Virus record (IMG/VR): IMGVR_UViG_3300010885_055091
Span: 1 to 64,000 of that record
Reading direction: 5' to 3' (one strand)
DNA: 64,000 nucleotides
Source: a virus
This document shows positions 3,093 to 55,628 of the stretch, one piece after another. Within the stretch, counting starts at the first letter, position 1. Every line of letters starts with the position of its first letter. The translations under genes and the position numbers were made by a program. The notes under the pieces were generated by a model. It ran no database searches. It was not told where the DNA came from and was given only the letters and a program-made list of their open reading frames with translations.

Positions 3093-3689
<597 letters not shown>

Positions 3690-36237: not shown

Positions 36238-39200
36238 TGGCATCACTAAATTTTTCTGGTTTTAGTTCCGTCAAGGATAGGACTGTATTTACTAACAAAG
36301 GCCCCATAGTAAAATCCCCACTTACTGTTTTATCAGGTCCTAATCTATATATTAATTCTCCAAATGAAATAAATATCCCCACAGGGAATTTTGATGCTTC
36401 ATATGTGAACAAAAATGTTCAGATTATTGGAAGTCCGCTTTCTAGAAATGATGGTACGTACCGAATAGTTGCTGTTAGAGCTTATAATATACTAAAGTTA
36501 GATGCTAATTTTGACTATGCGGATTCGGATAAGATCGAACAAGACATAGTAAAATTAGCTAATGACATTAGATTTAAATTCAATGCGCACTTGCTTAATA
36601 CTGACTCTCATGGAGAAAAGGACCTCGTAAATTCGGTTACTACCCCTCCTGCTGTTAGTTTATCGAATGCAATAGTTTTACTTAATGAAATTAAGACAAA
36701 AATAAGTATCCATTCTCTATTAAGCGACAATCCGTTATTCATTCACAAGTTCGCTGATCCCGATTCTAGTTTATTCACTGTTGATGCATTTGATCTTGAT
36801 AGTACCTTTCTTTTGGTTAATGCTTTAAGAAAGCGATACGAAGCTCACAGACAAGACATAGGAATTCATCTAAAAGATGACTTCGCGAATAGGTTGGCCA
36901 TAAACTCTGCCAAAGCTTACGTAGGTTCAGGATCAATGATCGGCCCATTTAATTGGGAAATCCAAGATCCCCGATATGGGGTAGTCGCGGATGATCCTTC
37001 TGACGTAAGTGTGTTGGTTAATGGTAATCCCGCTGATGTGGATTATGTGTTCGGGTTGCTTGGTGCCGTGGTCTTAACAGATAAACCAAATCACGGAGAT
37101 TCTGTATTAGTAGATTATAAATATTTAAAAAATCCCCCTACCCAATTCGAAAGACTAAATAGCTTCGAATTTGTTTTGAATCAAGAGGGTAATAACGGAT
37201 ACTCCGGTGTTCCAGGACACCTTTACAGACAGAGATCTTACCTGATTAATCCTGGTGATCCTAGACTAATAAAATCGCCTTTTTCCCCAAGGAAGATAAA
37301 TTATAAATATAAGGCATATGAAAATAAATATACAGCTAAGCTTAATGACCCGAGTTCATTGCTTTTAAATAGTCCTACTAACCGAATAATGTATTCGGTA
37401 TTTAATGAATCGGTATTTGAGTATATAATTAGATATGATCCGGTGGTTCTTCCTAATAATGCGATTGACCCTTGGGTGTTTTATGGAGAAGGTGTTACAA
37501 GATTAACTGTCGAGTATCCAACGCTCATAATAGAAGATACTACGAGGAATTATTCTAGTAATCCGGGTCCCCCTTTTTATTCACATTCACTAGACTTAAG
37601 ATACCCAAGCTTCATATCAGCGGCTTACAGATTTTATGCAGATTATGGATCTAATCTTACTTTAGATGGAGAATTCAACGGAGTAGGATTCGGTTTTACT
37701 GATGGTCAAAAAGCGGTAATCGTAGGTGGTTTACTGTCTGACGCAAATAACCTGTCGTCCGCCATATTTCTTTGTAATGACATAAAGAATAAGTATTCTT
37801 CTCATATTGATTCTGCTATATTTCACCGACCAAAGGATAATGAAAACATAGTACTAATTGTTGATGCATATGACTTAGATAGCTTGCTAAGACTGACGAA
37901 TCATTTAGTTTCCATTTACAATAGTCACATTGTACTAGGGTCTAATTATATTCACAAGAATTCTGATTTTTCGAATTCTGTAACCTCGACAGAGGTCAAT
38001 CAGTTAGAAGAAGCAATACTAAGACTCAATGAATTAAAAAGCAAGTTTAATACTCACAGAAGTTTCGTACCCGTACATTATAACAATGATAACATCAACA
38101 TTGTAGATAAAGTAAAACAAGTAGGTGTATTCAAGAATGAGGGATTTCTCGAAGAAGCGTCTGCTTGGCAGTCTTTTGCGTATAATTGGACTGTTGAGAC
38201 TACGTACCGCCTCTACATTACCCCAGATGGAAATGCTAGTATCTTTCTGAGTGGTGATGTTAATCCTAGAACATCAGTGGATTATTCAGAATTACCAAAT
38301 GCTTCCGATTTAGACCTGCAATTTGACCCTGTCTACCAAACATTTTTTGGCGCGTTGGGTGATGCCAGCTCTAGCAAGAGTTATTGGAGGTTCAGTAGAA
38401 TTGATGTACTACCAATAAATTCACTGCAAATACTGAAAAACAAACAGGTAAGCTATACATTTGATACGCTTCCTGAATACACTATGAATCCGTGGATTAC
38501 TGTCGGTCAAGGCGGGACTGAATATTTACTTCCCGTTGATAAACTTCAGTTAGATTCAACGTCTTTTATAAGTAACGCCGATGCTGAATCTACAGGAAAA
38601 GTCACAGGCGAATATAGAGGGTATCTTCGGATCGAACCCTCGTTAACAGACCGGAACGTCATTACTGTAGATTTTTCTTTATTCAGCCCATTTTATAGCT
38701 TCGGTGTAGATAATCGATCTTTAGGAGTTCATATAGGAGATGGTACTTTTGCTACGCAATTGTGCTTCTTACAGGCTAATCCTAGTCCCGCTCATATAAG
38801 AGGATTGGTGTATGAAGGAGCCTTTTCGATTTCTACGGGAGACACAGCCGTTTTCTCTGTGGATAACGGCCATATTATAGTGGTTACAAGCCCAAATAAT
38901 ATAATTACTGTTAATGACTTAGTAGTTTTAATTAATTCCCAGAGTGGCTTAAATATCGCTTCCGTTTACCAAAATCCATATACATTGCAAGAAACTATTC
39001 AATTTACCAGTATTAACACTGGTTCTGGTAGCAATCTAAGAATTATAAGTGGTCCTATATTCGATAAACTCGGAATTCCAGTAGGAATCTTTATATTTGG
39101 GAGTGATACTCAGCCTGAGTATAAATTTGGTTATACTGGTTTAAGTATTCCGAACTTTGACGATCCAACTTGGTTAACTTCCGGATCTCAAAAGTCAGAG

Positions 39201-42200
39201 ATGTTAGAAAGAACACTAGTAATTACTGACAATAGTGTAATAGATTTTAGGTCTTACACTCAGTCGAATCCTCTAGTCGTAAATCCGGTCATAATACCAA
39301 ATGAAAACTGGAAAGTAGATTTTAGATTTAAACTAACTTCATTTGAGTCTGGCAACACTATTGTTACTCCTGGTAATTATAAATTTTGTGGTGCTCTAGT
39401 TAATTTAGATGAAGGACCTAATGGAAAGAATTTAGAATTACACCTGTCGATAAGTCCAATAGATGAAAAGTATGCTGTAATTTATTCATTCAATAATCTA
39501 ACCAATACATTAGAGGAAGTGGCGGCTTTCGGATTCAACTGGGGTGACAATAAAAATCACTCATATAGTATTTATACCGATAAGGTGAACGATAATTTAT
39601 CTTTCTTTATAGATGGTGCGTATTTCGGTTCCTTCACATATTCAGGATTAAAAAATGGGTCTTATGGTCCCTCTTTAACATTTGGTTCTGGAGGGTCCCT
39701 TCTAAACAATGGGGATCTTGCTTCAGCAAAGTCCACTACTGAATGGAATTCTTTGTGCGTAATCCATGATTCTACTGTAGGCAACTCATATCTTCAATCT
39801 CAAAGATTCATGGGGTTGTACCGTGGAGGTCCTATCGATAGACTTTCTTCTTATTATCTTTCTCAGGTAGACTGGAAACAACCGCATTCCTATAGAATAT
39901 TACGAGATCCTATTAGTGGGGTAAGTGTTTATCTAGATAATTCGGCAGCTCCTGTCATTTCTGCTTCTTTTGACGTGTTAACTCTCCCTTTGAGCGTTTT
40001 GGATTTTCTTTCTGGAATAGTCCCAAGCGGAAATTTTATCGCATTTGGTTCTTTTAATCAGCAAGAAATATCCAGGTCTATATGGCTTGATGACATTAAA
40101 TACTCTATTGGAAAATTAAACGATACGAATGGGTTCGTCCCCCCTCACCAAGTTTTAAACCAGTCAAACTTGGTGAGTTCCTATGAGCATTTGAAACTAA
40201 AATCCGTTCATTCTCACCATGGATTTAGTTCGTACTCTGAGGGCACTCCTACAGATGACCTCTTAGCAAGCGATGATGTACAAGGGCTAATTACTTTAGG
40301 GGAGGGAATTCCCTTAATAACACAATCACAAAATATTCCGAATTTGGGTGGTCTTGTTACAGACGTTACGCCCTCTGATTCCATAGCCGCTGCAAGCTTC
40401 ATATTCCAAAATGGTCAGGTATCGAATTTTTCTGATGACCTTGTAAATGTCGCTGACATTGATGCAGTTTTAAGTCCCCTGCAGTCATTAAATAACTTAA
40501 TAAGTGAAACCAATATATTAAGACTAAAATATTTAGATCACATTTCTAAAACTAATTTCGGAGTGTTTGTAATTCACCAGAATGCTGACTTGGTTAATGA
40601 TGTAGTTAGCGGTCCAGTAGCACCTGGAGATTTGTCTGGCCTCATTAATTGTCTTAAGGATTTACGTGATGAATATAACTCGCATAGAATAGAAGCAACT
40701 GTTCATTACAACGATGATACCTTTCACGAAGTCGTTTTTGCTGATCCCACTGATTTAGAATCTTGCATTAACTCACATAACTTATTATCAGAAACGTTAA
40801 ATCTTCACATAAAAAGCTACTTGCCACATAGGTTAAGCGGAGAAAGTTCTGACAAGGTTCCTTACATACTAGCATCCCTAAATTTATTTAGGGATTTATT
40901 TCACTCCCATATGACCAATGAAAATGGGAACTTTGTGCACAAAGATATGGGAGTCGATTCTCCTGATACGAATAATGCTAATTTCTTAGTTACTGAGTAT
41001 GTAAATGATATTAGTCAGGCATTCCCTCAGATAAAAGCATTGATTGAAGTTTTTAACTTTCATCTGTCCAATAAGACACCACACGATAATATTTTTGATA
41101 TTACAAATACGATTTCTTTACCGTATCCTAATGGTATTGATGACCTGTACAACCAAATAATCATTCTGACTACGAAATTTAATGATCACTTATCAAACAC
41201 TGGTGGTGCGTATCATGACGGAAATGATATATATAACATCTTCGCTGCAAACGCGAATATAGAATATTTAGTAAGATACCTTTACAGTGCAAGAGACCTA
41301 CTGAACATTCATGTTAATGATTCTTCACTACATAACTTCTTAGATGACGATAATCAGTACTTAAATGAACTGAATTTTCTAATAAATGGTCCTAAAACCA
41401 CATGTAACCCTTCCGATTATTGTACATTTGCGAATGAACTAAAAGAAAAATTCATAAACCACTTTAAGTCGAGTACACACTTGACTGTAGACTTCTTAAA
41501 CGTTGATTTCTTAGAAGCTCAACCAAACGCCGTAAATCTTAATACAGCCATGGATCTGGTTACTTCTTGTTTGATTTCGATAAATCAACATAACCAGTCT
41601 TTGGTGAACGAGTTACAAGCGCATAATGGAATAGATGATGTGAATGAAGGCTTTACATCTATTAGTTATAACCCGTTAAGCTTAGTCTTTATGTACGTGA
41701 GTCAGGTTTGCGAGTTATTTAATCAACATATTGATTATAAAGAGTCTCACGTTAAAACTACTAGCTCGATACAATTCGGGAGCGGTCTTTCATTACAGGA
41801 TAGCGTCGATAATTTAAATATACTTAAGTCTTCTTACAATGACCATTTATTGAGTCCCGGAATCCATGTTAGGAACGATACGGCAAACGCCATAACTTCG
41901 CCTGATGCGTCCGATTTAGGTTCTCTCATAGTGTTATTAAACGAGACTGTAACCAAATATAATCAACATAGAATTCGACCTGGTGTTCATTCTAGTACTG
42001 CTATCATAAAACTCTCATCTCCTCCAAATTCCTTATATGATGGTTTGAAGATATGGACTATCGATTCAGGGACTCCGAATTTGATTTCGTCATTTTCTGA
42101 TGATGAAACATATAAAATACATGGGTTAAGTAACAGTAAAACACTAAAATTGAATTATTCCGGAGTAAACCTTCCAGAGAATATTTCAATTTGCAGTGTC

Positions 42201-42905
42201 AACACTGGCCCATTTCCTCTTATTCATAACACTTATTTATTAGTGTATTTGAATTATGCTAATGAACCAGTAAGGGTGATCTTTACATCCAGTGAAACAA
42301 CAGGCCAGGAAGTAGTAGATAAAATAAATAATACTTCGGGAATACCCCTAAATTTCGCTAGTTTATCTACTGATCAAAGAATAACTCTCACTAACCCCAC
42401 ATCTGGGGCCGGAACGTCTTTATCTGTTGATGGAACTACTCTTGACGTTCTGGGATTTAGAAATTCTCAGCCAATACCTTGGGCTCTATACGCTGATGAT
42501 TCCACCTCCGTATCAGTTGGTGTTGTGTCTTCTACCCCGGATTATTTATCATATACTACAACAGGTACAGGCACCAAGACTGCTTATGTGAATTCAAATG
42601 GGTTGACTGACTCGGTATCCCTTGGTTTCTCAATAAAATATAAGATAAAACTTAATACTTGGTCTTACGATGCTAATGGAGAGACCGGAATCTTCATAGG
42701 GTGTTCAGGTAAATCGGGTCCTGGATTCACAGTAGGTTTGGGATTTGGGGAGTTTTTTGGGAATAAGACAGTATATATGAAAGATATGAATTCCGGAAAG
42801 ATTTTAGCTTCAAAGGTATTCAATTGGGCGGATGGGGTGTTTCATGAATACATCATCGAAAGATCAATGCTTGATGATTCCATCATGTTTAAAATAAAAT
42901 ACTGA
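36237..42905 (+). CDS. Giant fibre protein with paired-His repeats and lectin-like domains (2222 aa)
   Basis: At 2222 residues this is the longest gene in the window. Paired-His helical repeats occur in three groups: about 101-220 (3 copies), 510-625 (3) and 1415-1922 (12). Typical units are LRKRYEAHRQDIGIH, LNELKSKFNTHRSFVPVH and LKSSYNDHLLSPGIHVRND, often followed by D-L-x-S-x-I. Between them lie a flagellin-IN-like beta domain (866-948; a second at 1988-2075), a concanavalin/LamG-like pair (about 1020-1310: WKVDFRFKL ... HSYSIYTDK ... LSFFIDGAYFGSF, then HSYRILRDPISGVSVYLDN) and a C-terminal lectin-like start (2124-2222) that ends early in M-F-K-I-K-Y. It is inferred to be a long host-recognition fibre, with lectin domains for glycan contact and helical repeats as a shaft. 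It is coupled to the previous gene by TAATG. Confidence 0.72.
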   Translation: MASLNFSGFSSVKDRTVFTNKGPIVKSPLTVLSGPNLYINSPNEINIPTGNFDASYVNKNVQIIGSPLSRNDGTYRIVAVRAYNILKLDANFDYADSDKIEQDIVKLANDIRFKFNAHLLNTDSHGEKDLVNSVTTPPAVSLSNAIVLLNEIKTKISIHSLLSDNPLFIHKFADPDSSLFTVDAFDLDSTFLLVNALRKRYEAHRQDIGIHLKDDFANRLAINSAKAYVGSGSMIGPFNWEIQDPRYGVVADDPSDVSVLVNGNPADVDYVFGLLGAVVLTDKPNHGDSVLVDYKYLKNPPTQFERLNSFEFVLNQEGNNGYSGVPGHLYRQRSYLINPGDPRLIKSPFSPRKINYKYKAYENKYTAKLNDPSSLLLNSPTNRIMYSVFNESVFEYIIRYDPVVLPNNAIDPWVFYGEGVTRLTVEYPTLIIEDTTRNYSSNPGPPFYSHSLDLRYPSFISAAYRFYADYGSNLTLDGEFNGVGFGFTDGQKAVIVGGLLSDANNLSSAIFLCNDIKNKYSSHIDSAIFHRPKDNENIVLIVDAYDLDSLLRLTNHLVSIYNSHIVLGSNYIHKNSDFSNSVTSTEVNQLEEAILRLNELKSKFNTHRSFVPVHYNNDNINIVDKVKQVGVFKNEGFLEEASAWQSFAYNWTVETTYRLYITPDGNASIFLSGDVNPRTSVDYSELPNASDLDLQFDPVYQTFFGALGDASSSKSYWRFSRIDVLPINSLQILKNKQVSYTFDTLPEYTMNPWITVGQGGTEYLLPVDKLQLDSTSFISNADAESTGKVTGEYRGYLRIEPSLTDRNVITVDFSLFSPFYSFGVDNRSLGVHIGDGTFATQLCFLQANPSPAHIRGLVYEGAFSISTGDTAVFSVDNGHIIVVTSPNNIITVNDLVVLINSQSGLNIASVYQNPYTLQETIQFTSINTGSGSNLRIISGPIFDKLGIPVGIFIFGSDTQPEYKFGYTGLSIPNFDDPTWLTSGSQKSEMLERTLVITDNSVIDFRSYTQSNPLVVNPVIIPNENWKVDFRFKLTSFESGNTIVTPGNYKFCGALVNLDEGPNGKNLELHLSISPIDEKYAVIYSFNNLTNTLEEVAAFGFNWGDNKNHSYSIYTDKVNDNLSFFIDGAYFGSFTYSGLKNGSYGPSLTFGSGGSLLNNGDLASAKSTTEWNSLCVIHDSTVGNSYLQSQRFMGLYRGGPIDRLSSYYLSQVDWKQPHSYRILRDPISGVSVYLDNSAAPVISASFDVLTLPLSVLDFLSGIVPSGNFIAFGSFNQQEISRSIWLDDIKYSIGKLNDTNGFVPPHQVLNQSNLVSSYEHLKLKSVHSHHGFSSYSEGTPTDDLLASDDVQGLITLGEGIPLITQSQNIPNLGGLVTDVTPSDSIAAASFIFQNGQVSNFSDDLVNVADIDAVLSPLQSLNNLISETNILRLKYLDHISKTNFGVFVIHQNADLVNDVVSGPVAPGDLSGLINCLKDLRDEYNSHRIEATVHYNDDTFHEVVFADPTDLESCINSHNLLSETLNLHIKSYLPHRLSGESSDKVPYILASLNLFRDLFHSHMTNENGNFVHKDMGVDSPDTNNANFLVTEYVNDISQAFPQIKALIEVFNFHLSNKTPHDNIFDITNTISLPYPNGIDDLYNQIIILTTKFNDHLSNTGGAYHDGNDIYNIFAANANIEYLVRYLYSARDLLNIHVNDSSLHNFLDDDNQYLNELNFLINGPKTTCNPSDYCTFANELKEKFINHFKSSTHLTVDFLNVDFLEAQPNAVNLNTAMDLVTSCLISINQHNQSLVNELQAHNGIDDVNEGFTSISYNPLSLVFMYVSQVCELFNQHIDYKESHVKTTSSIQFGSGLSLQDSVDNLNILKSSYNDHLLSPGIHVRNDTANAITSPDASDLGSLIVLLNETVTKYNQHRIRPGVHSSTAIIKLSSPPNSLYDGLKIWTIDSGTPNLISSFSDDETYKIHGLSNSKTLKLNYSGVNLPENISICSVNTGPFPLIHNTYLLVYLNYANEPVRVIFTSSETTGQEVVDKINNTSGIPLNFASLSTDQRITLTNPTSGAGTSLSVDGTTLDVLGFRNSQPIPWALYADDSTSVSVGVVSSTPDYLSYTTTGTGTKTAYVNSNGLTDSVSLGFSIKYKIKLNTWSYDANGETGIFIGCSGKSGPGFTVGLGFGEFFGNKTVYMKDMNSGKILASKVFNWADGVFHEYIIERSMLDDSIMFKIKY
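36540..38110 (+). repeat. Paired-histidine repeats, groups 1 and 2 of the giant fibre
   Basis: Group 1 (36540-36895) and group 2 (37765-38110) each encode three units of about 40 residues with the Y-N-x-H ... V-H-x-x-x-D pattern, for example LRKRYEAHRQDIGIH and LNELKSKFNTHRSFVPVH. They flank a beta-rich region and resemble the larger array further on. Confidence 0.7.
40480..42000 (+). repeat. Twelve-copy paired-histidine repeat array of the giant fibre
   Basis: About 12 consecutive units of 36-48 residues are encoded without other domains between them, from LISETNILRLKYLDH to LLNETVTKYNQHRIRPGVH. The conserved frame is: hydrophobic helix, [YF]-x-x-H, short variable loop, His, x3, Asp, x2, Asn, then D-L-x-S-x-I leading to the next helix. 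Some copies have lost the second His or the Asp. Confidence 0.75.
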
Positions 42906-42939
42906 AGACAATAAAATACTTATGGTAAAATAAACTATA

Positions 42940-43338
42940 ATGGGTAATTCTTTATATAACTACTCAAAGGAACTACTACTAAGCGGTTCTTTAGATTTAT
43001 TAACGGATGATATAAAGGCAATCTTAGTAGACAATACTTACGTACCGAACACGAGTACGGATCAATATGTAGACCCCGTTTTAGGTTTTGCCATAACTAC
43101 TGGAATTTCGCTGTTGAATAAATCAATCTCTGCTGGGACTTTTTCCGCAGACCCTATCACTTTTAGTGCTGTTATGGGAAACATTTACTTTATTATCATT
43201 TATCGAGATACGGGCGACCCGACTACAAGTCCACTGATTTGCTTATTCGATTCGGTACCAGGATTTCCAGTTAATGCTACTGGTGATGATTACACAATCA
43301 ATTGGAACTCTGGCTCTAATCAATTGTTCAGCGTGTAA
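42940..43338 (+). CDS. Small tail-tip or fibre protein (132 aa)
   Basis: This is a 132-residue beta-rich protein with the pattern of a small phage family: Y-N-Y-S-K-E-L-L-L-S-G-S-L-D-L-L-T-D-D-I-K-A-I-L-V-D near the start, an IFFVY-like strand in the middle (NIYFIIIYRDTGD) and DDYTINWNSGSNQLFSV at the end. In phages these small proteins lie near tail fibre genes and are often annotated only as structural. The start is ATG after an AT-rich leader without an obvious ribosome binding site. TAATG couples it to the next gene. Confidence 0.65.
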   Translation: MGNSLYNYSKELLLSGSLDLLTDDIKAILVDNTYVPNTSTDQYVDPVLGFAITTGISLLNKSISAGTFSADPITFSAVMGNIYFIIIYRDTGDPTTSPLICLFDSVPGFPVNATGDDYTINWNSGSNQLFSV

Positions 43339-43799
43339 TGGCAAATATTAATTTAAATCCTCCAAAAATCACATCGGAAGAATCCATATACCTAGCGGAA
43401 TTCTTTGGGTCTACTCCTATTATGGGCGGGTCCGTTCCCATTAATCAGCTTTCTGGCGAATTAAAAGACCCTATCTTAGGGAATTCAGAAGGCAATATAT
43501 TCTTCTCCCCATCTTTTAATACCCCGAACACTAACAATTCTATCTATGTCGAAAGTATAGAGGAAATTTGTGATGCAGGAGACTCTTACGTTGGTTTAAC
43601 CAAGACTCCCCCCATTAATTCCAGACCTTTCGTGTTTGGGCCATACGTATCATCTGGAAGGATATATCCACCAGATTTCTCAGTAGATTACGTACCGAGT
43701 TTTAATAATGTATTTGATTTCATGGGAACTCGCGAAAATAATGCCAAGGGTGTGTTCGTTGATTTAATGACTATGGAAGAAACTATCATCTTCTATTGA
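43338..43799 (+). CDS. Hypothetical small structural protein (153 aa)
   Basis: I do not recognise this protein. It is Pro/Asn/Ser-rich with few charged residues (INLNPPKITSEESIYLAEFF at the start; NNVFDFMGTRENNAKGVFVD near the end). The beta-strand pattern and its coupling to small tail proteins on both sides suggest a virion surface or attachment component. TAATG overlap with the previous gene; the next gene starts 24 nt later. Confidence 0.6.
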   Translation: MANINLNPPKITSEESIYLAEFFGSTPIMGGSVPINQLSGELKDPILGNSEGNIFFSPSFNTPNTNNSIYVESIEEICDAGDSYVGLTKTPPINSRPFVFGPYVSSGRIYPPDFSVDYVPSFNNVFDFMGTRENNAKGVFVDLMTMEETIIFY

Positions 43800-43823
43800 G
43801 CGTAGAGTAACTGGGAGCATAAA

Positions 43824-44471
43824 ATGCCAAAAGAGATATTCAATAAAATGGGTTTTAATAACACTGCCACCATGAGTAGCACGATGGTAGAGTCCCTTTT
43901 TGGTATTAGCGGCGAGATTTTTTGGGAGTTAATAGATTCAAGGACAGGTGAGACCACCAAGGGTCATATCAAAAACATAGTCACACTAGATGCAGGAATC
44001 CTGGTGGCTAGACTAATGAAATCTACGGCTACCCCAAATGTGTCCGAGCCGAAATTCGGAGTATATGCTTTAGCAGTAGGAACCGGTGATGTTGGCTGGA
44101 ATCAAATGAACCCACCTCCTGCTAATGTTTACCAGCGTTCTCTATATAATGAAATTGCTCGGAAAACCGTTGCTTCATCCTCATTTATAGACTCGGCAGG
44201 AGCTATTAGTGGTGTTCCTTCGCACGTAGTAGACTTTAATATTACTTTCGCAGATAATGAGGCAGTCGGACCTCTTACTGAGATGGGATTACTGGGGGGA
44301 GATATTAATACTAATATGTCTATCCGCAATCCGGTTATGCCTCCGAATGGGTCATATGATCCCACAGCGGATGTTACTGGGAAAGATACCCTTTGCAATT
44401 ATGTTACCTTCCCAGTATTAAACAAGCCACCGAGCAGTACTTTAAGCTGGACTTGGCGCTTAACTTTTTAG
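43824..44471 (+). CDS. Tail fibre-associated structural protein (215 aa)
   Basis: The pattern matches a phage structural family seen near fibre genes: an early GEIFWELIDSRTGETTKGH, then KFGVYALAVGTGDVGWNQMN, LYNEIARK, a strand pair ... VVDFNITFADNEAVGPLTEMG, LLGGD, and the end CNYVTFPVLNKPPSSTLSW followed by TWRLTF. The invariant A-V-G-T-G-D-x-x-W and E-x-G-L-x-G-G turns are kept. Function in such families is not defined in detail; attachment at the tail tip is likely. GGGAG gives a ribosome binding site. The last 16 nt lie inside the left copy of the 32-bp direct repeat that flanks the mobile element. Confidence 0.7.
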   Translation: MPKEIFNKMGFNNTATMSSTMVESLFGISGEIFWELIDSRTGETTKGHIKNIVTLDAGILVARLMKSTATPNVSEPKFGVYALAVGTGDVGWNQMNPPPANVYQRSLYNEIARKTVASSSFIDSAGAISGVPSHVVDFNITFADNEAVGPLTEMGLLGGDINTNMSIRNPVMPPNGSYDPTADVTGKDTLCNYVTFPVLNKPPSSTLSWTWRLTF

Positions 44472-44487
44472 TGTATATTTAATATGT
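44456..44487. repeat. Left copy of 32-bp direct repeat flanking the nuclease gene
   Basis: This 32-bp sequence (begins GCGCTTAACTTTTTAG) is repeated without change at 46399-46430. It covers the last codons and TAG stop of the upstream gene and the leader up to the nuclease GTG. The match stops exactly at both ends. Confidence 0.92.
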
Positions 44488-46384
44488 GAGAAAAGACATT
44501 TCCGGATTATTAGTTCATATAGATTTAGATGCGACAGAATTAAAATTTGGCGTCTTAAAAGACAATCAGTCAAGATGTGTCGTGTCTTGCCATGGGTGTC
44601 TAGAGACTCATGACTCTAAGATAATACTCTTAAAGAGTCATATTTCAAAAAGGGAATTTTATTACTGTAGTAGCTGTTTAGGCAAAATGTCTTGGACAGA
44701 GGAAAAGAAGAAGAAAATTAAAGATTACTGGTCAGTCCCTGAAAATATATTGAAGGAGCATGAAATTAGAAAGGATAAATGGAAAAACGGAAAATATAGG
44801 TCTCAGATGGAAAATATTATCCAAGAAAGGTCTGCGACTCCAGCATTCAAGAATAAAATGTCCGTTTTATCTTTAAAGAAGTGGGAGGACCCTTCTTACC
44901 ACTTAAATATCTCTGACCAGATTAAAAATAAGTGGGAAGACCCGGAATATCGTAATAAGCAGGAAGCTTATAAAACAGATGAGTGGAAGTCTGAGCATTC
45001 AAAAACGCAGACGTTACTTTGGACTGATGAAAGCTATAAACAGAACATATCACGTAAAATATCGGAAGCATGGAATGATGACGAATATAGGAATAATCAA
45101 GTAATTAAGCAGACACAGGTTTGGCTGAATCCTGATCATAAAGAAAAACAGTCACGCATGATGAAAGAAAAATGGAAAGATCCTTCTTTCAGAGCGAAAT
45201 ATGAAAATCTTTGGAAGTCTAAGTCATGGCGGAAAAACCTTTCCGACACTTTAAAGAAAATATGTAGTAATCCAGAATATAAAGCAAAATTAAGTGAAAC
45301 CTCGAAATCTAGATGGGGAAATCCAGAATATAGAGAAAAAGTATCAAAAGGGGTTAGTCGGGCGTGGGATGACCCCGATTACAGGCAAAATAAGGCAGAA
45401 AGTGCTAAGGCTTTTTGGGATAACGAAGATAATCGGCAAAAATTTGCATTAATTAGAGCTGCTCAATCTGGACGTCGTTCTAATATTGAAAAAATAGTAA
45501 GCGAAATTTTAAAGGGATTAAATATTAATTTTGAAGAACAAAAAGCTCTTGGTGTTTATGTTTTTGATTTTTATCTCAATGAATATGATTTATATATAGA
45601 ATGCCAGGGGGAATATTGGCATTCTTTGCCTGGTAGAAAAGAAAGAGATGCCGCAAAGTATACTTATCTTGAGAAGGCAGCTCCCAAGTCCAGAATTTTA
45701 TATCTATATGAACATGAATTTATAAATCCCAATACTATATTATCTAAATTAATGAATGCCACGATACCACAAAACATGCCAGGTAATGACTTTATTGAAA
45801 GCTTCAGATTTCAGGATCTGCTTATTAAGACAGTAGAAAGAGAGGAAGGAGCAAGTTTTTTAAATGCTTTTCACTATGCGGCGAATGGTAGGGCCGGGAA
45901 AAGTATTTATGGAGTCTATTTGGGTAGTGTGTTGATTGCTGTAGCGAAGTTTTCTTCCGTAATACGCCAAGAATCAGCTTCGTCATTAGGACTTCATCCG
46001 AAGAATGTTTGTGAATTGGATAGATTCTGCATTCATCCTAGATATCATAAACGAAATTTCGCTAGTTGGGTTTTGTCTAGAGTGACTAAAATGGTATTAA
46101 GTGACACTAGAATAAATTATATAATATCATTTGCAGATAGTACCTATGGACATAATGGAACCATCTATAAAGCAGCCAATTGGGGGTACGTAAGTAATGT
46201 TAAGGCTGATTATTATTATGTGAATGAAGAAGGGTTTATCCTCCACAAGAAAACTCTTTATAATAGAGCAGTGAAGATGAAATGTACCGAAAAACAATAT
46301 GCTGAAACACATAATTACATGAAATGCTGGGGCCGAGAAAAGTTCAAATTCATATACCCACGAATAGTAAAGACACTCTCCTAA
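44486..46384 (+). CDS. Homing-type nuclease fused to Mom-like GNAT domain (632 aa)
   Basis: Four parts are visible. (1) A zinc finger: C35-x2-C38 and C61-x2-C64. (2) About eleven NUMOD3-like DNA-binding repeats (about 95-325) built on W-x-D-P-x-[YF]-[RK], for example KKWEDPSYHLNIS and SRWGNPEYREKVS. (3) A Vsr-like PD-(D/E)XK nuclease (about 330-430): SNIEKIVSEIL, VYVFDFYLNEYDLYIECQG, EYWH, then LYLYEHEF. (4) A Mom-like GNAT domain (about 445-625) with FADSTYGHNGTIYKAANW and a final KFKFIYPR. Known Mom uses this fold to modify adenine in phage DNA. Here nuclease and modification-type domains are joined. GTG start: TAA lies two codons upstream in frame. It is flanked by 32-bp repeats, so it is a mobile free-standing gene. 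Confidence 0.8.
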   Translation: MRKDISGLLVHIDLDATELKFGVLKDNQSRCVVSCHGCLETHDSKIILLKSHISKREFYYCSSCLGKMSWTEEKKKKIKDYWSVPENILKEHEIRKDKWKNGKYRSQMENIIQERSATPAFKNKMSVLSLKKWEDPSYHLNISDQIKNKWEDPEYRNKQEAYKTDEWKSEHSKTQTLLWTDESYKQNISRKISEAWNDDEYRNNQVIKQTQVWLNPDHKEKQSRMMKEKWKDPSFRAKYENLWKSKSWRKNLSDTLKKICSNPEYKAKLSETSKSRWGNPEYREKVSKGVSRAWDDPDYRQNKAESAKAFWDNEDNRQKFALIRAAQSGRRSNIEKIVSEILKGLNINFEEQKALGVYVFDFYLNEYDLYIECQGEYWHSLPGRKERDAAKYTYLEKAAPKSRILYLYEHEFINPNTILSKLMNATIPQNMPGNDFIESFRFQDLLIKTVEREEGASFLNAFHYAANGRAGKSIYGVYLGSVLIAVAKFSSVIRQESASSLGLHPKNVCELDRFCIHPRYHKRNFASWVLSRVTKMVLSDTRINYIISFADSTYGHNGTIYKAANWGYVSNVKADYYYVNEEGFILHKKTLYNRAVKMKCTEKQYAETHNYMKCWGREKFKFIYPRIVKTLS

Positions 46385-46398
46385 CCAAAATATATATA
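44488..46398 (+). mobile_element. Homing endonuclease cassette between 32-bp direct repeats
   Basis: Removing 1943 bp (one repeat copy plus the cassette) would restore an ordinary junction: the upstream gene's TAG, 12 nt, then the ATG of the 46427 gene. The 3' edge is independently marked by the relic at 47174-47259, whose similarity ends at the same TATATATA as the cassette does. The repeat may be a target duplication made by repair of a staggered cut; the mechanism is inferred. Confidence 0.65.
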
Positions 46399-46430
46399 GC
46401 GCTTAACTTTTTAGTGTATATTTAATATGT
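46399..46430. repeat. Right copy of 32-bp direct repeat
   Basis: Identical to 44456-44487. It contains the ATG (46427-46429) of the downstream gene and its AT-rich leader. The duplication therefore kept a complete translation start for the gene behind the insertion. Confidence 0.92.
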
Positions 46431-46897
46431 TTGAATTGACTGAATCAAGGTGGTGGTATTATCATGATTCTACGGCACATTTCACATTTGATGGTATTTT
46501 CGACGGGGAATCCTTCGTATTTGTAGTTCCAGTCAAATATAGTTTTTCTACAGAGGAAGATTCATATGGACTGATCCTTAACGTTCTTATCCCTGATGAG
46601 TCAGAATGTACCACTGGTGGCACTCTCAAATTAGATGGTGTTGAGGTCCCCAGAAGTGATGAACGTCATAAGAGATTCTTGAAGGAAAAAGACCTCAGCA
46701 ACAAGCAGATCGGATGGTCTGCTTTATCTGATCAACTCCTTGAGTTCGTTACCGCTAATGTGGAGGCGTTGAACGAGAGATTAAGGGATGAGCGGGCCGA
46801 TGACGAAGCTTATTGTGTGGAGCAGTGCCTCAAAGATCGCGCGCCGACCGATGACCTCCTCGCGCGCTTGAAGAAGCCCGATTCATTGTCGAACTAG
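46427..46897 (+). CDS. Hypothetical protein downstream of the mobile element (156 aa)
   Basis: I do not recognise this protein. Residues 1-90 are beta-rich (RWWYYHDSTAHFTFDGIF, FVFVVPVKYSFSTE), and residues 95-156 are helical and highly charged (LLEFVTANVEALNERLRDE, RADDEAYCVEQCLKDRAP). The 3' third has visibly higher GC than its neighbours (runs such as GCGCGCCGACC). Its ATG lies inside the right 32-bp repeat, so before insertion it followed the 215-aa structural gene by 12 nt. The function is probably accessory rather than structural. Confidence 0.6.
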   Translation: MFELTESRWWYYHDSTAHFTFDGIFDGESFVFVVPVKYSFSTEEDSYGLILNVLIPDESECTTGGTLKLDGVEVPRSDERHKRFLKEKDLSNKQIGWSALSDQLLEFVTANVEALNERLRDERADDEAYCVEQCLKDRAPTDDLLARLKKPDSLSN

Positions 46898-47327
46898 ATC
46901 AATTGTGGATCCAAATGAGCGATCTTTGGAATTCATCTATTGCTCTATCATGATTTACATTTCTGCTAAAAAATTGAATGAAGGTACGTGAAGAGTTTTT
47001 CAGATATTGATTCATGAAGCTTGACGCTTGAACGGAGCGAAGCTAAACTTGCCGAAGCAAACCTGAACGAGCTGCCGTGGTTATTTTAGAGACGTTTAAA
47101 GATATAACGAGTTTTAGGAAGCTCTTTAAATTTACAAGACCATGAAGAGCCACATGGTCTGCTTCTTTCAGCCTAATTACAAGAAATGCTGGGCCGAGAG
47201 AAGTCCAAATTCGTATATCCACGAATAGTAAAGACACTCTCCTAACCAAAGTATATATATTTTTAACCTATTTCAGGTGTAAAGTATGTAGGCTCTGATT
47301 TTTAAACAGAGTGGAAAAAGAGGAAAT
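46898..47327. other. 430-nt gap holding decayed sequence
   Basis: No convincing gene starts here. The right half contains the nuclease relic (listed separately). A stretch at about 47020-47090 reads in one frame as a short coding-like piece, L-E-R-S-E-A-K-L-A-E-A-N-L-N-E-L-P-W, closed by stops on both sides, which may be a remnant of another gene. A weak hairpin (CTCTG/CAGAG) lies about 20 nt before the HU-like gene, followed by its ribosome binding site (GAGGAA). Confidence 0.55.
47174..47259 (+). pseudogene. Relic of the 3' end of a nuclease-GNAT gene
   Basis: These 86 nt match the last codons, stop and 3' tail of the intact nuclease gene (46312-46398), with about six substitutions and one deleted G that breaks the frame. 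It begins at the H-N-Y-M-K-C-W-G-R-E region and runs through the conserved TCCTAACCAAA to TATATATA. The similarity stops at the same base as the cassette's own 3' edge. No 5' part was found. Confidence 0.8.
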
Positions 47328-47621
47328 ATGACTAAAAAAGAACTGATTTCATCACTTGCTGCTTCAGCTGAACTGACTCACAACGATATTGCTAAGGTGC
47401 TCAAAGGCCTTACTGATGTTTGTCTGGATGAATTGAAGACGAACAAGTCTTTCGTTCTTAACGATATGGTTCGACTCCGTTTAGTGGATAAGCCCGCTCT
47501 TCCGGCGCGTCAAATGAAGAGTCCTGCTACTGGTCAGATGATCAGTGTCCCGGCGAAGCCAGCAAGCAAGAAGCTCAAGGTGACTGTTGCAAAGCAGCTC
47601 CGAGATCTTGTTAAGGGCTGA
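47328..47621 (+). CDS. HU/IHF-like DNA-binding protein (97 aa)
   Basis: The length and pattern fit the HU family: an N-terminal helical pair (MTKKELISSLAASAELTHND, then VLKGLTDVCLDELKTN), a strand set around VLNDMVRLRLVDKPA, the DNA-contacting beta-arm near RQMKSPATGQMISVPAK, and a closing helix VAKQLRDLVKG. The usual F-G-x-F strand is changed to N-D-M-V-R-L. Such proteins bend DNA; phage versions may compact the genome or remodel host chromatin. GAGGAA before the ATG is a good ribosome binding site. It is the only likely DNA-binding gene in this part of the structural region, and it follows the decayed gap. Confidence 0.8.
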   Translation: MTKKELISSLAASAELTHNDIAKVLKGLTDVCLDELKTNKSFVLNDMVRLRLVDKPALPARQMKSPATGQMISVPAKPASKKLKVTVAKQLRDLVKG

Positions 47622-47655
47622 TTTCTGCCCGATAAACCTTCTTTGGCCTGGATGA

Positions 47656-50217
47656 ATGATGGGCGGTTATGAGAATTTAGGGCCAATCATAAGCCAAAAC
47701 CCCCAGGCGGTAACGCCTGGGGGCGGTAGTTATTCAGCTGATGAGAGATCATATGATTCCGTAGTATTCCAGCAGAATCATCCGCCAATGGACTGGGAGA
47801 TGAATCTCATCCAGTCTGTGGTCGGCAATGCTGGTCTTAGAAATCTAGCTTCTAAATTATTCAGCAGTACGTTCATATCCGGAAACGTATTAGAATCAAA
47901 TGCTCCAGGAGCATTTTACGAATTTTTACCAGCAGTAGCTGGTAATGAAAACATTATTAGATTTTCGGCTTGTGATTTATTAGTAAACGGTTGGGCTCTT
48001 CGTTTAGAATATTCAAATACTGATGTCGATGGTAAGAACTTAGTTCAATTAACTGCTCCACCATTAACCGGTATTAGGCAGGATCTTCTAATATTAGAAG
48101 TATGGAGAGCACTGCTTTCTCCTCTCCCTTCTGTAGATAACAAGAGTCTGGGTGGCTTGATACTACGAAATGGTAATGCCAATGCTCCTGATACAGTAAA
48201 CTTATCGGATGACCTAATAGACCCGAATTATCTAGCAGAGACATCTAGAAGAGTTCAGATTCAGTATAGGATTCGCATCATAGAATCGGTAGACATTCTT
48301 TCCTATCCTGACGGCTTGGGCGATCCATCAATTACTGCACATACGGTTCCATATCTTGGCGGTTCTGATGTAAATGGAAATGATTTGCCTGCGTACGTCT
48401 ACACTGCCGTAGCTGGAGACTCAGGATTATGGCGTTCCGGGGCTGGAGACGCTGCTTCAGCCACTGATATAGGGTCAGTCGATGGCTATATATGTTCATT
48501 ACCATTGTGTGTCGTAGTCAGACGTAATTCCGACACTTGGGACAAAACCACAAATCTCAATGGTGGGGTATTAATCGGTGGAGTCAGTCCTCGACCAGAC
48601 GGTTTATTTTCTGATCAGATAGCCTCGGGGGACCTAATAGATCTGAGAAAATATACTGCCTGGAATGCACAAGAATTCAAGAATGATGCTGTCGATGCAT
48701 TAATGCAGAATTCCTTGTCCACCCAATATGAAGAATCTGCCTTGGGAACTGGCGGAAACACCTTCCTGATGAAGGATCCGATAGGTACTTCTTCACATAT
48801 TTGGGATGCGGATGGTGTTAGAACCTCATATTCAGATAAACCAGTGGTTCATCCAATTGCGTTGTCATTTACTATTCCAATGGCAACCAATACACTGACT
48901 TGTGATCTCACTATAAATGTTGATTTGCCATGGGCTTCAGGTATCAATATACTGGCAAATGCTCCTGCAGGAACCAATTTACTTAGCATTAGTAAATGCT
49001 TCATAAATGATGGCGTAGGAAACATTTATGATGCTTTTGATTCTTCCGTAGCCTATCACATATTAAACATAGTTTATTCTATTTCGGGAACGGAAATCGA
49101 TACAGCCACCATAGAATTTAACCAAAATATTCCTGTCGGGACTGTTTTTTTAGAAGCTTTGGTAGAATATCCACCAAATGTGGGCCTTTCTAGAAATGTC
49201 ATCTCAATAGATAAGGTCTGGGTTCCTAATAATTTTGATGCTTGGGTAGATACCTCGGAATTCACTGCCACATCAGATGCGGATCGTAGTAGCATAAATA
49301 CTTCTTTTAATATTGATTTAGTAAATAGACAGGTTACGTTCGCTTATCCCTCGAATCTCATAAGCGATACGTTTTATAACCACACTCTCTCTCAATTCAT
49401 GATCCCCGACTGTGTCGATGCAAGCAGCGTTGTGATTACAGGTAAAGCAGTGGTTGGGATTGAATATAATGCTGGTTGCACAGTCATAGAGTTTAATCCC
49501 CCTGAAATGGCTCTTGGTGTTGGACTAGCTGTCGATTATGTGGCTTATCGTCCACCAGTCCCATTAGGAATGGTGCCTTATGACTCTATCGATGTTTTTT
49601 ATCAAACTCGATCGATTCAATCGATACCAGTTCCAGTAGGAATGTATTCCCCATCATTTTATCGGCGTACAGATATTGAAAGAGTGTTCTTCATATCTTC
49701 CGGGTCTGGATCCTACGATTCAGCAGAATATGATGCTTCTACGCAATTAGCGATACCAAGACTTCCAATAGTCGATTATTCCGACAGTTTATTCTCTGGA
49801 TACCATGAGTCTTCTGTCGTAACAAACGGTAATGATAATGGGATCAGTGAAGTCTTAGTGACTGAGAAATCCTATTTGGCTTCTGACGGCTTTTATCTTT
49901 CTACCGCAGGTGGAACTACACAAGATGCTGATGGTAGGAATTACTGGCCTTACTCGCCCAATATAATATTAAAAGCATTTAATGCTACTGATTTCAACAT
50001 AAGCACTCGTCGTAAATTAGCTAGTGATTTCGTCTTGGAGCTTAAGGAAGATTTCCCATCACTTGGAAGGAAAGGAAGTCTTTATCTGGCTATGGCTACG
50101 GGTTATTCATATAACTCTCGCATAAATAAAATACATACTTCAGATTCAGTAGAACTTGACGGAGTTTCCCTCTTCAGATTAAGGGGAAACCCACTTTATT
50201 ATCGGAGGTCCTCTTGA
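47656..50217 (+). CDS. Adhesin-type structural protein, paralogue A (853 aa)
   Basis: The first 430 residues match the gene at 50927 in order: SYDSVVFQQNHPPMDWEMNL (paralogue AAVVFQVGKPPLDSELNL), LILEVWRALL, TSRRVQIQYRIRI, GDSGLWRSGAGDA, and RPDGLFSDQ followed by I-A-S-G-D-L-I-D-L-R. The remaining 420 residues are beta-rich and not shared. The shared part is probably the virion-anchoring or trimer-forming region; the rest would be exposed. The start ATG 47656 is followed directly by another ATG; no strong ribosome binding site was seen. A stable hairpin lies 44 nt into the gene. The gene ends with a TTG overlap into the next. Confidence 0.7.
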   Translation: MMGGYENLGPIISQNPQAVTPGGGSYSADERSYDSVVFQQNHPPMDWEMNLIQSVVGNAGLRNLASKLFSSTFISGNVLESNAPGAFYEFLPAVAGNENIIRFSACDLLVNGWALRLEYSNTDVDGKNLVQLTAPPLTGIRQDLLILEVWRALLSPLPSVDNKSLGGLILRNGNANAPDTVNLSDDLIDPNYLAETSRRVQIQYRIRIIESVDILSYPDGLGDPSITAHTVPYLGGSDVNGNDLPAYVYTAVAGDSGLWRSGAGDAASATDIGSVDGYICSLPLCVVVRRNSDTWDKTTNLNGGVLIGGVSPRPDGLFSDQIASGDLIDLRKYTAWNAQEFKNDAVDALMQNSLSTQYEESALGTGGNTFLMKDPIGTSSHIWDADGVRTSYSDKPVVHPIALSFTIPMATNTLTCDLTINVDLPWASGINILANAPAGTNLLSISKCFINDGVGNIYDAFDSSVAYHILNIVYSISGTEIDTATIEFNQNIPVGTVFLEALVEYPPNVGLSRNVISIDKVWVPNNFDAWVDTSEFTATSDADRSSINTSFNIDLVNRQVTFAYPSNLISDTFYNHTLSQFMIPDCVDASSVVITGKAVVGIEYNAGCTVIEFNPPEMALGVGLAVDYVAYRPPVPLGMVPYDSIDVFYQTRSIQSIPVPVGMYSPSFYRRTDIERVFFISSGSGSYDSAEYDASTQLAIPRLPIVDYSDSLFSGYHESSVVTNGNDNGISEVLVTEKSYLASDGFYLSTAGGTTQDADGRNYWPYSPNIILKAFNATDFNISTRRKLASDFVLELKEDFPSLGRKGSLYLAMATGYSYNSRINKIHTSDSVELDGVSLFRLRGNPLYYRRSS
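47700..47723 (+). other. Perfect 10-bp GC-rich hairpin with GUAA tetraloop
   Basis: The arms CCCCCAGGCG (47700-47709) and CGCCTGGGGG (47714-47723) enclose GTAA, a GNRA tetraloop. In this AT-rich DNA such a stem stands out. It falls in codons 16-23 of the paralogue A gene, shortly after the start, where it could slow or regulate ribosomes, or stop read-through from the HU gene. There is no T-run after it, so it is not a clear terminator. Confidence 0.7.
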
Positions 50218-50864
50218 AATTTTTAGTCGATAAATTCACGGGCTCCATTTCTGGGGCTTATTCCGATATTGATAATAAACCCGTATCTGGAGCAATGATA
50301 ATTAGTGTTCCTTCCGACTTTAAATTCAATATAGATCCTACTATAGATAGTCCTACTTTATCTGATTTGTTGACCCAAAAATATGCCAACATTTCTGATA
50401 AAGTCAGCGGCATTTTTCCATACACCAATACGGTAAATCAGGAATTCATTGACCCTTCTGCAATATTGAACACTGCATATTCTAACTTATATTCCATAGG
50501 ACCAAATAGACGGACCGTCCTAAAGCCTACAGGTATCCTATCTGTAGGAACTGCTGGCTCAGGTTATAGCTTTGCTAATATACCGACCGATTTTTATTGT
50601 GAGTATAATGTTTACGAAATAACTGCTGATTCTAACGGTAATGCGTGGGGTCCACCAGTCTACAGGGTTAACACATCTTTTGATCCTATTATGGATGTTG
50701 AATTTCGCTTGCTGGACAATACGGGCGCAGATTTACAAACTCTTGTGTCTGGCTATAATCAGGCTAGTGTCGGTATGTACACGGGGGATTTTTTGGTGGG
50801 AATCGAAAATCTCAGTACACGCACTTTTGTATTATCAGATTTTTGTTTGTATTGGAAAGAGTAA
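50214..50864 (+). CDS. Hypothetical structural protein (216 aa)
   Basis: I do not recognise this protein. The TTG start at 50214 is fixed by a strong GGAGG six bases upstream and overlaps the previous TGA stop. The chain is beta-rich with many Asn/Asp/Ser/Thr turns (KFLVDKFTGSISGAYSDIDN at the start; NLSTRTFVLSDFCLYWKE at the end) and no membrane segment. It lies between the two paralogous adhesin-type genes and is translationally coupled to the first, so it is probably a partner or cap of these proteins. Confidence 0.65.
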   Translation: MKFLVDKFTGSISGAYSDIDNKPVSGAMIISVPSDFKFNIDPTIDSPTLSDLLTQKYANISDKVSGIFPYTNTVNQEFIDPSAILNTAYSNLYSIGPNRRTVLKPTGILSVGTAGSGYSFANIPTDFYCEYNVYEITADSNGNAWGPPVYRVNTSFDPIMDVEFRLLDNTGADLQTLVSGYNQASVGMYTGDFLVGIENLSTRTFVLSDFCLYWKE

Positions 50865-50926
50865 AGTACACTTAAGGTCGCATCATTCCTAGATGCATAC
50901 CCTTATGATGACGGAGACTATTTGAA

Positions 50927-53900
50927 ATGCCCATTAATCCACTCGGAGCCGGAGTAAGCAGATACATTAATGATAGAGACCGGCAGTATGCTGCTGTAGT
51001 TTTTCAGGTTGGTAAGCCACCCCTGGATTCTGAATTAAATTTAATATCTCTCATTGATTTAGAGTCCAAAGCTGAGGAAGCACGCAGCCGCGTGGCATCC
51101 GGCTGGCTGATGAATGAAATAAACCCTTATGCTGATTTCTTAACCCGGCCAGAATTTTCGAATCAGTTTTATTTCGGTAATAACTTCGCTGGAGAGTCCC
51201 GCAATATCACTTGGGCCATAGTAAATGGATGGCCCATACCTGTAGCAGGTACCAAAACGGGCGCTCCTCCATTAGCTGCTAATAATGTCGACTATTGGAA
51301 TCGAATTACCCTAAACCCTCCATCCACTTCTACTGGCGGCAATAGAGCAGAATTTGCTTTTCTAGAAGTTTGGCTTCAGCGTGTTGATGTAGACCCAGCA
51401 GCACCAGCGATTGCTCCTGGAAAACCGCTACGTGGTTATATATATAAATTTGGCAATGTAGAGGGTGGATTTTCCCCACTGCCAGATGAATTGGTAGACC
51501 CCGACATTAATTTTGAGACCACCAAGCGTGTTCAAATACAATACAGAATCCGCGTTGTTGCTGATATTAATTTAGTATCCAATCCCGAGGGATTCGATCC
51601 TACATTAGTGTTTGCTCAGGGTAGCCTTTCAGGCCCGTCAGTCGTTCCATTCTCCAATATGCGAGAAGCCTTAGGCGACCCAGGATTGTGGCGTGCTGGA
51701 ACCGGCGACCCAACTACTTTCGGAACTGCAGATGGGTTCGTATATGCTATACCGATTTGTGGTGTTTTTAGAAGAAATGCTGCGGGATTCAGCGACGTCG
51801 GTAACTTAGCTGGTTCATTTAATAGAAATTCAAAGGCTTTAACGCGGGTGAATGCACTCACATTTACCGCTCCCATCGCCTTGCAAGCTAGTTTATCCTC
51901 TTTCGCTACTAGCTTTTCCATAGCCAGCATATCCGGAACTCCTCTAGATACCTTGACCTCATTTGGTGAGGCATACTTTAGAATAGATGATGAGATAGTA
52001 AGAGTCACCAGCGTAATTCAGATATCAGCCATAAATTATACAATCAATATTGAAAGAGGGCAACTTAATACAATAGCACGCTCACATTTATTCGGGACCG
52101 AGTTATTTATATATACTGTTCGGCCAGACGGGTTGTTTGCGGATCAGGTGTCCAATACTGATATTTTAGACTTGCGTCACTCAATAGCTGATAAATTTGA
52201 TTATGATAGCATACTTCAATCTAACGTCGTAGAATTACTCAAAGGAAACCTACGAAGTACCTGGAAGAGGTACGGCACAACCAACACTGCTGGTCCAGTA
52301 ATCCTATATGGTGATAGAATCACAGATTCTTCAATATTTACGGGCGGTCTTACTAGACTAGATGCTCCAGATGGTAATCGCAGAGCATACTCAGATGCCT
52401 CTGTAATGCAAAAATTCGTATTACCCGTCACAGTTCCTAGCAATTCCCTCACACTAGGGAATAATATCCAGACCACTGTCAGTCCATATACTGGGACAGT
52501 AGTATGGTCCGGATCAGCTCCCGCTCACCCAACTGGTAGCCGACTTAACGGTACTTACCCAACTTGGTGGAACGGCGACCAAATCACGGTAAACATACTT
52601 CCATTCCAAAATGGTGTTTCGATTGCTGATGCAAATCAGATAAGATTTATTACCCCATCAGAATTATCGGATTCTATCCTCGTTAGATTCGAGGGAATGA
52701 CATCTGATCCTAACGGGGGTGATCCACTAGAATTACCCCCAACCGCTCCAACAGCTTCGGACCCTTATTTAAACATCCCGATTTCTGGTCAAAGAATACT
52801 TAGAAACGGACAAGGAATCAGTGTAGTCGTTGATGGTTCCGGTAATCTAGTGATTACTTTAGCTAGCGGCGCTATCGATTCTGAATTCCAAGAATTCGTA
52901 GATGCTATTCAGGGAGAAACCGATCCAGGTCGAGTATCTCAGTACAAGATGTATGTGGAGTTTACTGTTCTATATGGAACTGGTCGTGGTCTATCTCACC
53001 GACCCGACTGGATCCATATGGTCCAGTATAGAGGAACCCCGACTAACGTAACAAAGACTCTACGTCGTAGTGGTCTTTCTACACTGTCGCCAATGGTACC
53101 TACCTACATAGGCGATTCTCCATTAGTTCAGACCGGAAACGATCGTAATTTAGCCAAAACGTCGGAGGTCATGTTTGATCCCGGCTCTAAAACTGTTTAC
53201 GTCGCTCCATACAGAATGCTGACCATTCCTCCTCTGGTTGCCAGGAATGGTGCTCTACTAAATTGGTATAATGGTGGAGCGAACACCCAAGGCTCAATGC
53301 CGCAATTAGACCAGGATGGCGTGAATACCGTTCATCCTGTTGTTGATCCCCTTACACTCTTCTTCACGGGGTCTGTTACTAAGTATGTCGAATTACCATT
53401 CCAGTACTTACCAAAACCAGGATTTCATTATGTTCCAATAGTTCCGATTACTGATTTGGTATATTCATCAGGTATCAATTTCCTAATGAAGTCGAGCCAG
53501 GGAGTTGTAGGAAATACTCCGGACTATAACCGAAATTATGTCTCCTACCCAGCCAATACCCCCGGTTACTATATAGTGACACCGGAAGTAGGAGAAGTGT
53601 ATGGAAATAGCAACGGTAATAAATCCATATACGGTGAAAAGATAACGATAGAAAAGGTAACAGGTAGAGAGGGACAGGCTTTTAAGGGAATCAAATTTCC
53701 ACCCTTCTTAGGACCGGCAAGAATTACTGGCATTTATCTCAGAAGTGGTCTTGATGTCTCTCCCGCTTCCACTCCCTTTAATAATGACCGAATATTTATT
53801 GGTGGGATAGGGACAGACGTCAATCTTCTGCGAGACAGCTTCGACGGACCAACGTTCCTCTTGGACGTTGATACGAACGGGGATCTATACTTTGTATTAA

Positions 53901-55558: not shown

Positions 55559-55576
55559 TCGTCAGGCTTCTTTTGA

Positions 55577-55612
55577 GCTATCAATAGTGGTTATCTGACC
55601 ACTATTGATAGC
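55577..55612 (+). terminator. Strong hairpin terminator before the tailspikes
   Basis: A perfect 15-bp inverted repeat (GCTATCAATAGTGGT against ACCACTATTGATAGC) with a 6-nt loop lies 18 nt after the paralogue B stop and is followed by TTATATTTA. It separates the adhesin genes from the tailspike genes. Confidence 0.85.
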
Positions 55613-55628
55613 TTATATTTAGAGTTTA

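Follow-up and report, generated by a model that had tools for sequence, protein, structure and literature searches.

What is a protein that seems built both to cut DNA and to mark it doing between two conserved phage genes? The question is raised by an open reading frame at positions 44486..46384 of a virus sequence of 64,000 nucleotides (hereafter the window), taken from a longer virus record that measures 126,943 bases. A 257,205-base IMG/VR contig belongs to the same virus (99.99% over 17,896 bases), and a search among named phages found no close relative of window positions 40000-60000. A preliminary description of the locus had read the product as a zinc finger, NUMOD3-like repeats, a Vsr-like nuclease and a Mom-like GNAT domain in one chain, and had suggested a self-protecting homing element. 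All window features reported here lie on the plus strand.

The gene is a single open frame with a GTG start and encodes 632 amino acids. It was classed as a Hef-type homing endonuclease gene on the basis of the frame itself, of PHROG 559 (label: HNH endonuclease), which covers residues 54-608 (E 9.8e-19), and of 20 aligned relatives with 28-44% identity to the protein; the deposited annotation of the family is "Hef-like homing endonucleases". Structure prediction with AlphaFold from the main alignment of 21 sequences, window protein included, gave a pLDDT of 85.5 and a pTM of 0.49; the predicted chain runs from a zinc-site domain through 16 helices, spaced at a period of 17 residues, to a mixed nuclease core and a GNAT-like C-terminal domain. 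When a profile of the 21 sequences was compared with solved structures, two families scored below E 0.001, represented by 8BV8 (1e-9) and 3R3P (9.2e-9). The motifs VFDFYL, IECQGEYWH and FADSTYGHNGTIYKAANW, singled out in the preliminary description, are all present, at residues 359, 371 and 549.

The EDxHD nuclease core (residues 332-429; 45479..45772) was assigned from the fold and profile match to 3R3P, which is I-Bth0305I; the structural comparison with VIA-align gave a Z of 13.9 and an rmsd of 2.7 over 95 aligned residues at 23% identity. Residue conservation was counted in 85 rows, obtained from 92 nuclease ORFs by removing 7 short or identical ones. D361 and K391 were found in 85/85 rows, H379 in 84/85 and E372 in 82/85 (D in the other three), so that the putative catalytic acids are conserved; the position of D388 was D in 48 rows and H in 37. 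Pfam labels on this stretch, namely DUF559 (0.00057), MTES_1575 (0.0012) and Vsr (0.0096), were each below the cut-off. The Vsr-like nuclease proposed earlier stands as a nuclease core, but Vsr is not its closest family: membership was rejected at 16.2 bits against a cut-off of 27, and the specific match is I-Bth0305I.

The last domain (residues 439-629; 45800..46372) was identified as a Mom-type GNAT domain by Pfam Mom (PF25680; E 1.1e-25, 90.9 bits against a curated cut-off of 27.1), by its match to 8BV8, the Mom protein of phage Mu (VIA-align Z 17.0, rmsd 3.9, 179 aligned), and by its conserved residues. Other GNAT proteins made up most of the remaining VIA-align list, and the Mom-like GNAT fold put forward in the preliminary description is upheld by this comparison. 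The title of 8BV8 refers to an inactive S124A mutant; the alanine in that chain that we take to be S124A aligns to S527, and the roles of Mu Mom residues beyond S124 are presumptive. The 93 nuclease-fused Mom rows compared comprise 86 EDxHD and 7 HNH fusions, and three of them duplicate the window gene. Across all 93, H463, R513 and Y561 were invariant; S527 was S in 87 rows (T in the other 6), D551 was D in 89 (N in the other 4), and E510 was E in 91 (D in the other 2). Drifting positions in the EDxHD-fused rows were N524 (G in 40/86) and H556 (S in 35/86). This count, like the tree described below, leaves out 2 of 88 fused ORFs with a Mom match shorter than 125 residues, the nuclease-less L069 and L103 (cut by locus ends), L081 and the split ORF of phage F370. 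Judged by its sequence and its model, the C-terminal domain appears to be a true Mom-type transferase with active-site residues. The combination of a DNA-cutting and a DNA-modifying domain in one chain, as first described, is supported, the putative catalytic residues being conserved in both.

The N-terminal half consists of a zinc site formed by two C-x2-C pairs, 35/38 and 61/64 (44588..44677), and a helical repeat array (residues 72-327; 44699..45466) that is probably the DNA-binding half. Both cysteine pairs are where the preliminary description had placed them, and the four cysteines are invariant in 12/12 rows of an alignment (A2) selected for similar N-terminal halves; in the wider 21-row alignment the site is missing from L022, L025 and L027. 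Strands 30-34 and 41-45 and helices 46-56 and 62-69 are predicted for this region. The array is predicted as 16 helices in two AlphaFold models (pLDDT 85.5 and 88.7), with a repeat period of 17 residues by tryptophan spacing. Where about eleven W-x-D-P-x-[YF] units had been claimed, 4 strict occurrences were counted, and 9 of the relaxed form W-x-[DNE]-[PDE]-x-[YFNH], which in 5000 shuffles of the protein occurred 0.06 times on average and twice at most. The proposed identity of the repeats with NUMOD3 was rejected, as Pfam NUMOD3 gave no match at E <= 1. A match to GerD (Pfam E 4.3e-9, over the cut-off; 0.016 in the profile comparison with 4O8W) was taken as a chance likeness of helical repeats. 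Residues 1-330 alone gave no Foldseek match at E <= 0.001 and a best VIA-align Z of 5.3 (rmsd 3.1, 69 aligned), which does not amount to a new fold. The number of repeats differs between relatives, and the array is perhaps a modular DNA-reading device. Outside the window, in the same record, a 364-aa frame matches the repeat region only (G000:99156-99659; residues 92-257, 28%).

The family is widespread and partly described. Hef proteins of fletcherviruses align to residues 303-615 of the window protein at about 26% identity. With the Hef protein of CP30A as query, matches were found in 409/50,697 phage records, and 58/60 of the rows listed at even steps extended to at least residue 453, through most of the nuclease and Mom. 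The Mom domain of a relative, used as the sole query, matched 154 records, many of them annotated Mom-like proteins without a nuclease. A homolog in Escherichia phage vB_Eco_F26, a T4-type phage, lies between nrdA and nrdB, the place described for Hef of phage U5 (PMC3322345), and an annotation in Acinetobacter phage DLP3, "putative nuclease/acetyltransferase protein", indicates that others had already noticed both parts. Some of the matching proteins come from phages in culture, among them phages that infect Escherichia, Acinetobacter and Campylobacter, so that laboratory phages could be used to study whether a mark shields the gene-bearing genome. A pattern scan of bacterial and archaeal genomes gave 4 loci, 3 of which (L096, L097 and L098) are small contigs of one Lokiarchaeota MAG carrying five nuclease-Mom ORFs; they are perhaps viral contigs binned with the MAG.

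Other nuclease-Mom fusions were found in IMG/VR records and in fletcherviruses. Pfam Mom marked 49 places in 13/14 IMG/VR records, 1 to 8 in each, and none in G013 or in 14 control genomes. Forty were fused to EDxHD (one a 280-aa ORF with a partial core) and 7 to two HNH-like motifs, so that 47/49 share one ORF with a nuclease core or paired HNH-like motifs; the other two are a fragment (L084) and an unclear case (L081). The HNH motifs in the 7 fusions were read by eye from the alignment in all, with Pfam HNH over the cut-off in L040, below it in L042 and L046 and unlisted in 4. Conversely, the EDxHD core had 53 places in these records, and 51 were in frame with Mom. In 11 of the 51 the Mom was divergent and escaped Pfam at E 0.001, and in one the frame had an internal stop; the other 2 places were nuclease-only, the core being recognised by eye. 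The 34 EDxHD places of three fletcherviruses comprised 30 fused, 3 nuclease-only orthologs (360-362 aa) that retain the core residues, and 1 split. Across the 14 IMG/VR records and the three fletcherviruses, a full-length Mom in its own ORF occurred only in Campylobacter phage F370, as a 183-aa ORF beside its nuclease: at 85589-87207 nuclease and Mom lie in two adjoining ORFs, where CP30A has a single fused ORF, which is either a natural split or a broken gene. A further copy in the virus of the window (G001:230970) has a stop in the nuclease frame and an open Mom domain. The direction of decay was dropped as a test of self-protection, as no consistent direction was seen among copies.

A tree of 103 Mom domains, built by a quick method with SH-aLRT support only and with 46/97 inner branches below 80, gathered the HNH fusions into a single cluster (98) nested among EDxHD fusions in a wider one (99), and separated 10 hand-chosen nuclease-less Moms from the fused ones (86). 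These groupings indicate that the nuclease cutter was apparently replaced by paired HNH motifs while Mom stayed. The HNH cluster includes one REase fusion, L041, which combines another nuclease half (Pfam DUF7487, E 3.4e-24) with the Mom domain. Repeats similar by eye to those of L041 occur in the tail of an ORF without Mom at L155:2137-3408, the neighbour of which is an HNH-Mom ORF.

The two halves of the protein have had different histories. In 17 same-locus pairs from fletcherviruses, which share genomes and are not independent, dN/dS was 0.159, 0.114 and 0.116 for the N-terminal, nuclease and Mom parts, and dS was 0.09, 0.36 and 0.53. In a scan of 30 of the 34 fletchervirus genes (excluded were the three nuclease-only genes and Los1 2125-3885), the best match of a 150-base window lay at another locus in 7/472 N-terminal, 62/190 nuclease and 102/262 Mom windows. 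The excess dS of the nuclease and Mom parts goes with this exchange among loci; part of the contrast arises because N-terminal halves are too unlike one another for homologous exchange. By these comparisons the nuclease-Mom core swaps among paralogs while the N-terminal half remains with its locus, and we infer that each recognition half belongs to a particular site, the cut-and-mark core being general.

The claim of a homing element was supported for the family by presence and absence in close relatives. A whole Hef gene is present in CP30A and F370 and absent from Los1, with flanks that are 95-98% identical; 19 bases of the empty site in Los1, hairpin-like by eye, are replaced in the other two. 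Among 40 fletchervirus records this site matched in one piece in 25 and as two halves apart from each other in 15, GenBank and RefSeq copies being counted separately and the inserted gene checked in CP30A and F370 (2/15). Another Hef site, CP30A 76897-78342, was occupied in 40/40 records, with no empty allele. CP30A 66979-68298 was rejected as a presence/absence case against F370; it arose instead by recombination between two adjacent Hef genes, which stand separate in F370 and Los1. At the gathering score, Rfam gave no match in window 36000-56000 or in 20 of the 49 Mom places, hence no known intron, and an intron-encoded homing endonuclease found no support.

For the window gene itself, an empty site was found in the distant L035 and none in a close relative. 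Both genes flanking the homing gene have homologs in related large phages: upstream an intact conserved gene of PHROG 5417, with no assigned function (43824..44471; E 6.7e-16), and downstream the next conserved gene (47656..50217), the homolog of which in L035 starts a few bases past the stop of the upstream gene. L035 therefore has the two genes in direct succession, and its record (G013) contains no EDxHD place. L002 to L007 have a homing gene after the upstream gene, and L037 has other small ORFs there. The window gene is probably mobile. On a 242-kb phage contig the ortholog of the homing gene is immediately followed by a tmRNA gene with the tag ANDNAVRVAA (L004:9753-10091), and the same sequence was seen by eye behind the gene in L005. 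In L037:5315-5925 and L002:7537-8351 the same intergenic place holds series of small ORFs whose products end in VMES or IMES; C-x2-C pairs occur in some of them.

The surroundings of the window gene bear signs of disturbance. A 32-bp direct repeat spans the end of the upstream gene and the leader (44456..44487) and recurs, 100% identical, at 46399..46430. The last 87 bases of the homing gene (46312..46398) are 92% identical to a second copy of the tail at 47174..47259, presumably a remnant of another copy of the gene. Beginning at the last base of the right-hand repeat, 46430..46744 is a displaced copy of a stretch from inside a different gene of this virus (73-75% identical near G001:253781-254066); that gene lies about 207 kb further on the 257-kb contig. 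The copy bears a 156-aa ORF (46427..46897) that gave no PHROG match at E <= 0.1 and whose residues 2-114 share 56% identity with a portion of another ORF of this virus, 212 aa long. Repeat, tail copy and displaced fragment may be scars of breaks near the end of the upstream gene that were mended from wrong templates. A target duplication of the transposon type is not favoured for the 32-bp repeat, because L002, L004 and L006 are without a gene-flanking direct repeat of at least 16 bases and because the right-hand part is a patchwork.

On balance we think it probable, by a modest measure, that the window gene is a free-standing Hef-type homing endonuclease gene of a large phage whose product cuts and marks DNA as follows. 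The zinc site and helical repeats would choose the DNA target. The EDxHD core, to judge by its family and position, would cut both strands of a sister genome, or of one that co-infects, close to where the upstream gene ends. The gene would then be inserted when the break is repaired with the gene-bearing copy as template, a step for which presence and absence in relatives, not in the window phage, give support. The Mom domain, steered by the same N-terminal half, would most likely modify adenine in or near the target, and the modified DNA of the gene-bearing genome would then escape the fused nuclease. We tentatively prefer this escape as the reason for the fusion, while conceding that it may well be another, because the neighbouring gene, and with it possibly the target, is not disrupted by the insertion. 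The cuts of T4 free-standing endonucleases are described as falling elsewhere than at the insertion site (PMC2988022), so that how the gene-bearing genome is protected is worth asking. Mom may plausibly serve self-protection, and the nuclease-only copies argue against a strict need for it. Extended to the family, the idea is more speculative still: Hef-type proteins could be self-immune homing elements in which a shared recognition half guides both a cutter and a Mom marker, the gene-bearing genome is marked and so escapes, unmarked co-infecting genomes are cut and converted, and the nuclease-Mom cassette is an exchangeable unit that has been combined with many recognition halves, Mom having changed its nuclease type at least once.

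Two other purposes for the fusion have to be weighed. Restriction-modification is how Iyer et al. (2021, PMC7824862) interpret the jumbo-phage fusions of Mom with an REase, and the strong coupling of nuclease and Mom suits it equally with homing: Mom would mark the phage genome, the nuclease would hit host or superinfecting DNA, and homing would be incidental to a one-chain weapon. Genomes with as many as eight Pfam-level copies and differing N-terminal halves speak against this, as do insertion-site polymorphism and the homolog between nrdA and nrdB, which form the pattern of homing genes and not that of one immunity system; we hold it to be unlikely. Alternatively, the protein could be a homing nuclease whose Mom domain benefits the phage, modifying adenine genome-wide against host restriction and unrelated to its own nuclease. 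The Mom of Mu shields phage DNA from host restriction (PMC6483171), and the active site here is under strong constraint; yet one copy would be enough for that purpose, nearly every nuclease copy has its own Mom, and the Mom domain outlasted an exchange of nuclease type, all of which makes this reading improbable too. That the Mom domain has lost its catalytic activity and only binds DNA or protein, as the drift at N524 and H556 might suggest, is very improbable given the invariance of H463, R513 and Y561, S or T at S527 in 93/93 fused rows and the dN/dS of 0.116.

Should the homing and self-protection reading be true, one protein would join selfish homing genes and restriction-modification, and protection would come from a chemical mark and not from insertion destroying the target; a mark that shields the gene-bearing genome would be another way for a homing gene to spare its carrier. 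Apart from function, the profile and fold results assign the Hef family an EDxHD nuclease plus a Mom domain. The nuclease-Mom fusion itself is already in print (PMC7824862); among the papers found by literature search, that one alone describes Mom-REase fusions, and there may be further accounts. New here are the dispersed, multi-copy occurrence of the fusions, which in fletcherviruses are also polymorphic, the HNH swap with Mom kept, and the exchange of cores among paralogs.

Compared with known systems, the Mom-REase fusions of jumbo phages have the same domain pair as the window protein. The main text of PMC7824862 has no occurrence of 'homing' or 'Hef', and HNH partners, mobility and core exchange were not found there, unlike in the present analysis. 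The Mom of phage Mu, a methylcarbamoylase, shares the fold and active-site residues, the S124A position included; however, the chain in 8BV8 is Mom alone (232 residues), whereas the window Mom shares its chain with a nuclease and a recognition half. I-Bth0305I is an EDxHD homing endonuclease with the same catalytic fold and profile as the window core. It has an extended DNA-binding region (PMC3943268), a rule given there with which the zinc site and helical array, as predicted from our models, agree. The comparison was with its catalytic domain, since 3R3P holds that domain of 105 residues, in which the deposited chain has Ala where the window protein has D361 and H379. Closest are the Hef-like homing endonucleases of phage U5, the Campylobacter fletcherviruses and PHROG 559, with U5 counted here for its nrdA/nrdB position (PMC3322345). 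They have in common nuclease and Mom in one chain, and they are likewise free-standing between genes in several copies per genome, but their N-terminal half is unlike the zinc site and 17-residue helical repeats of the window protein.
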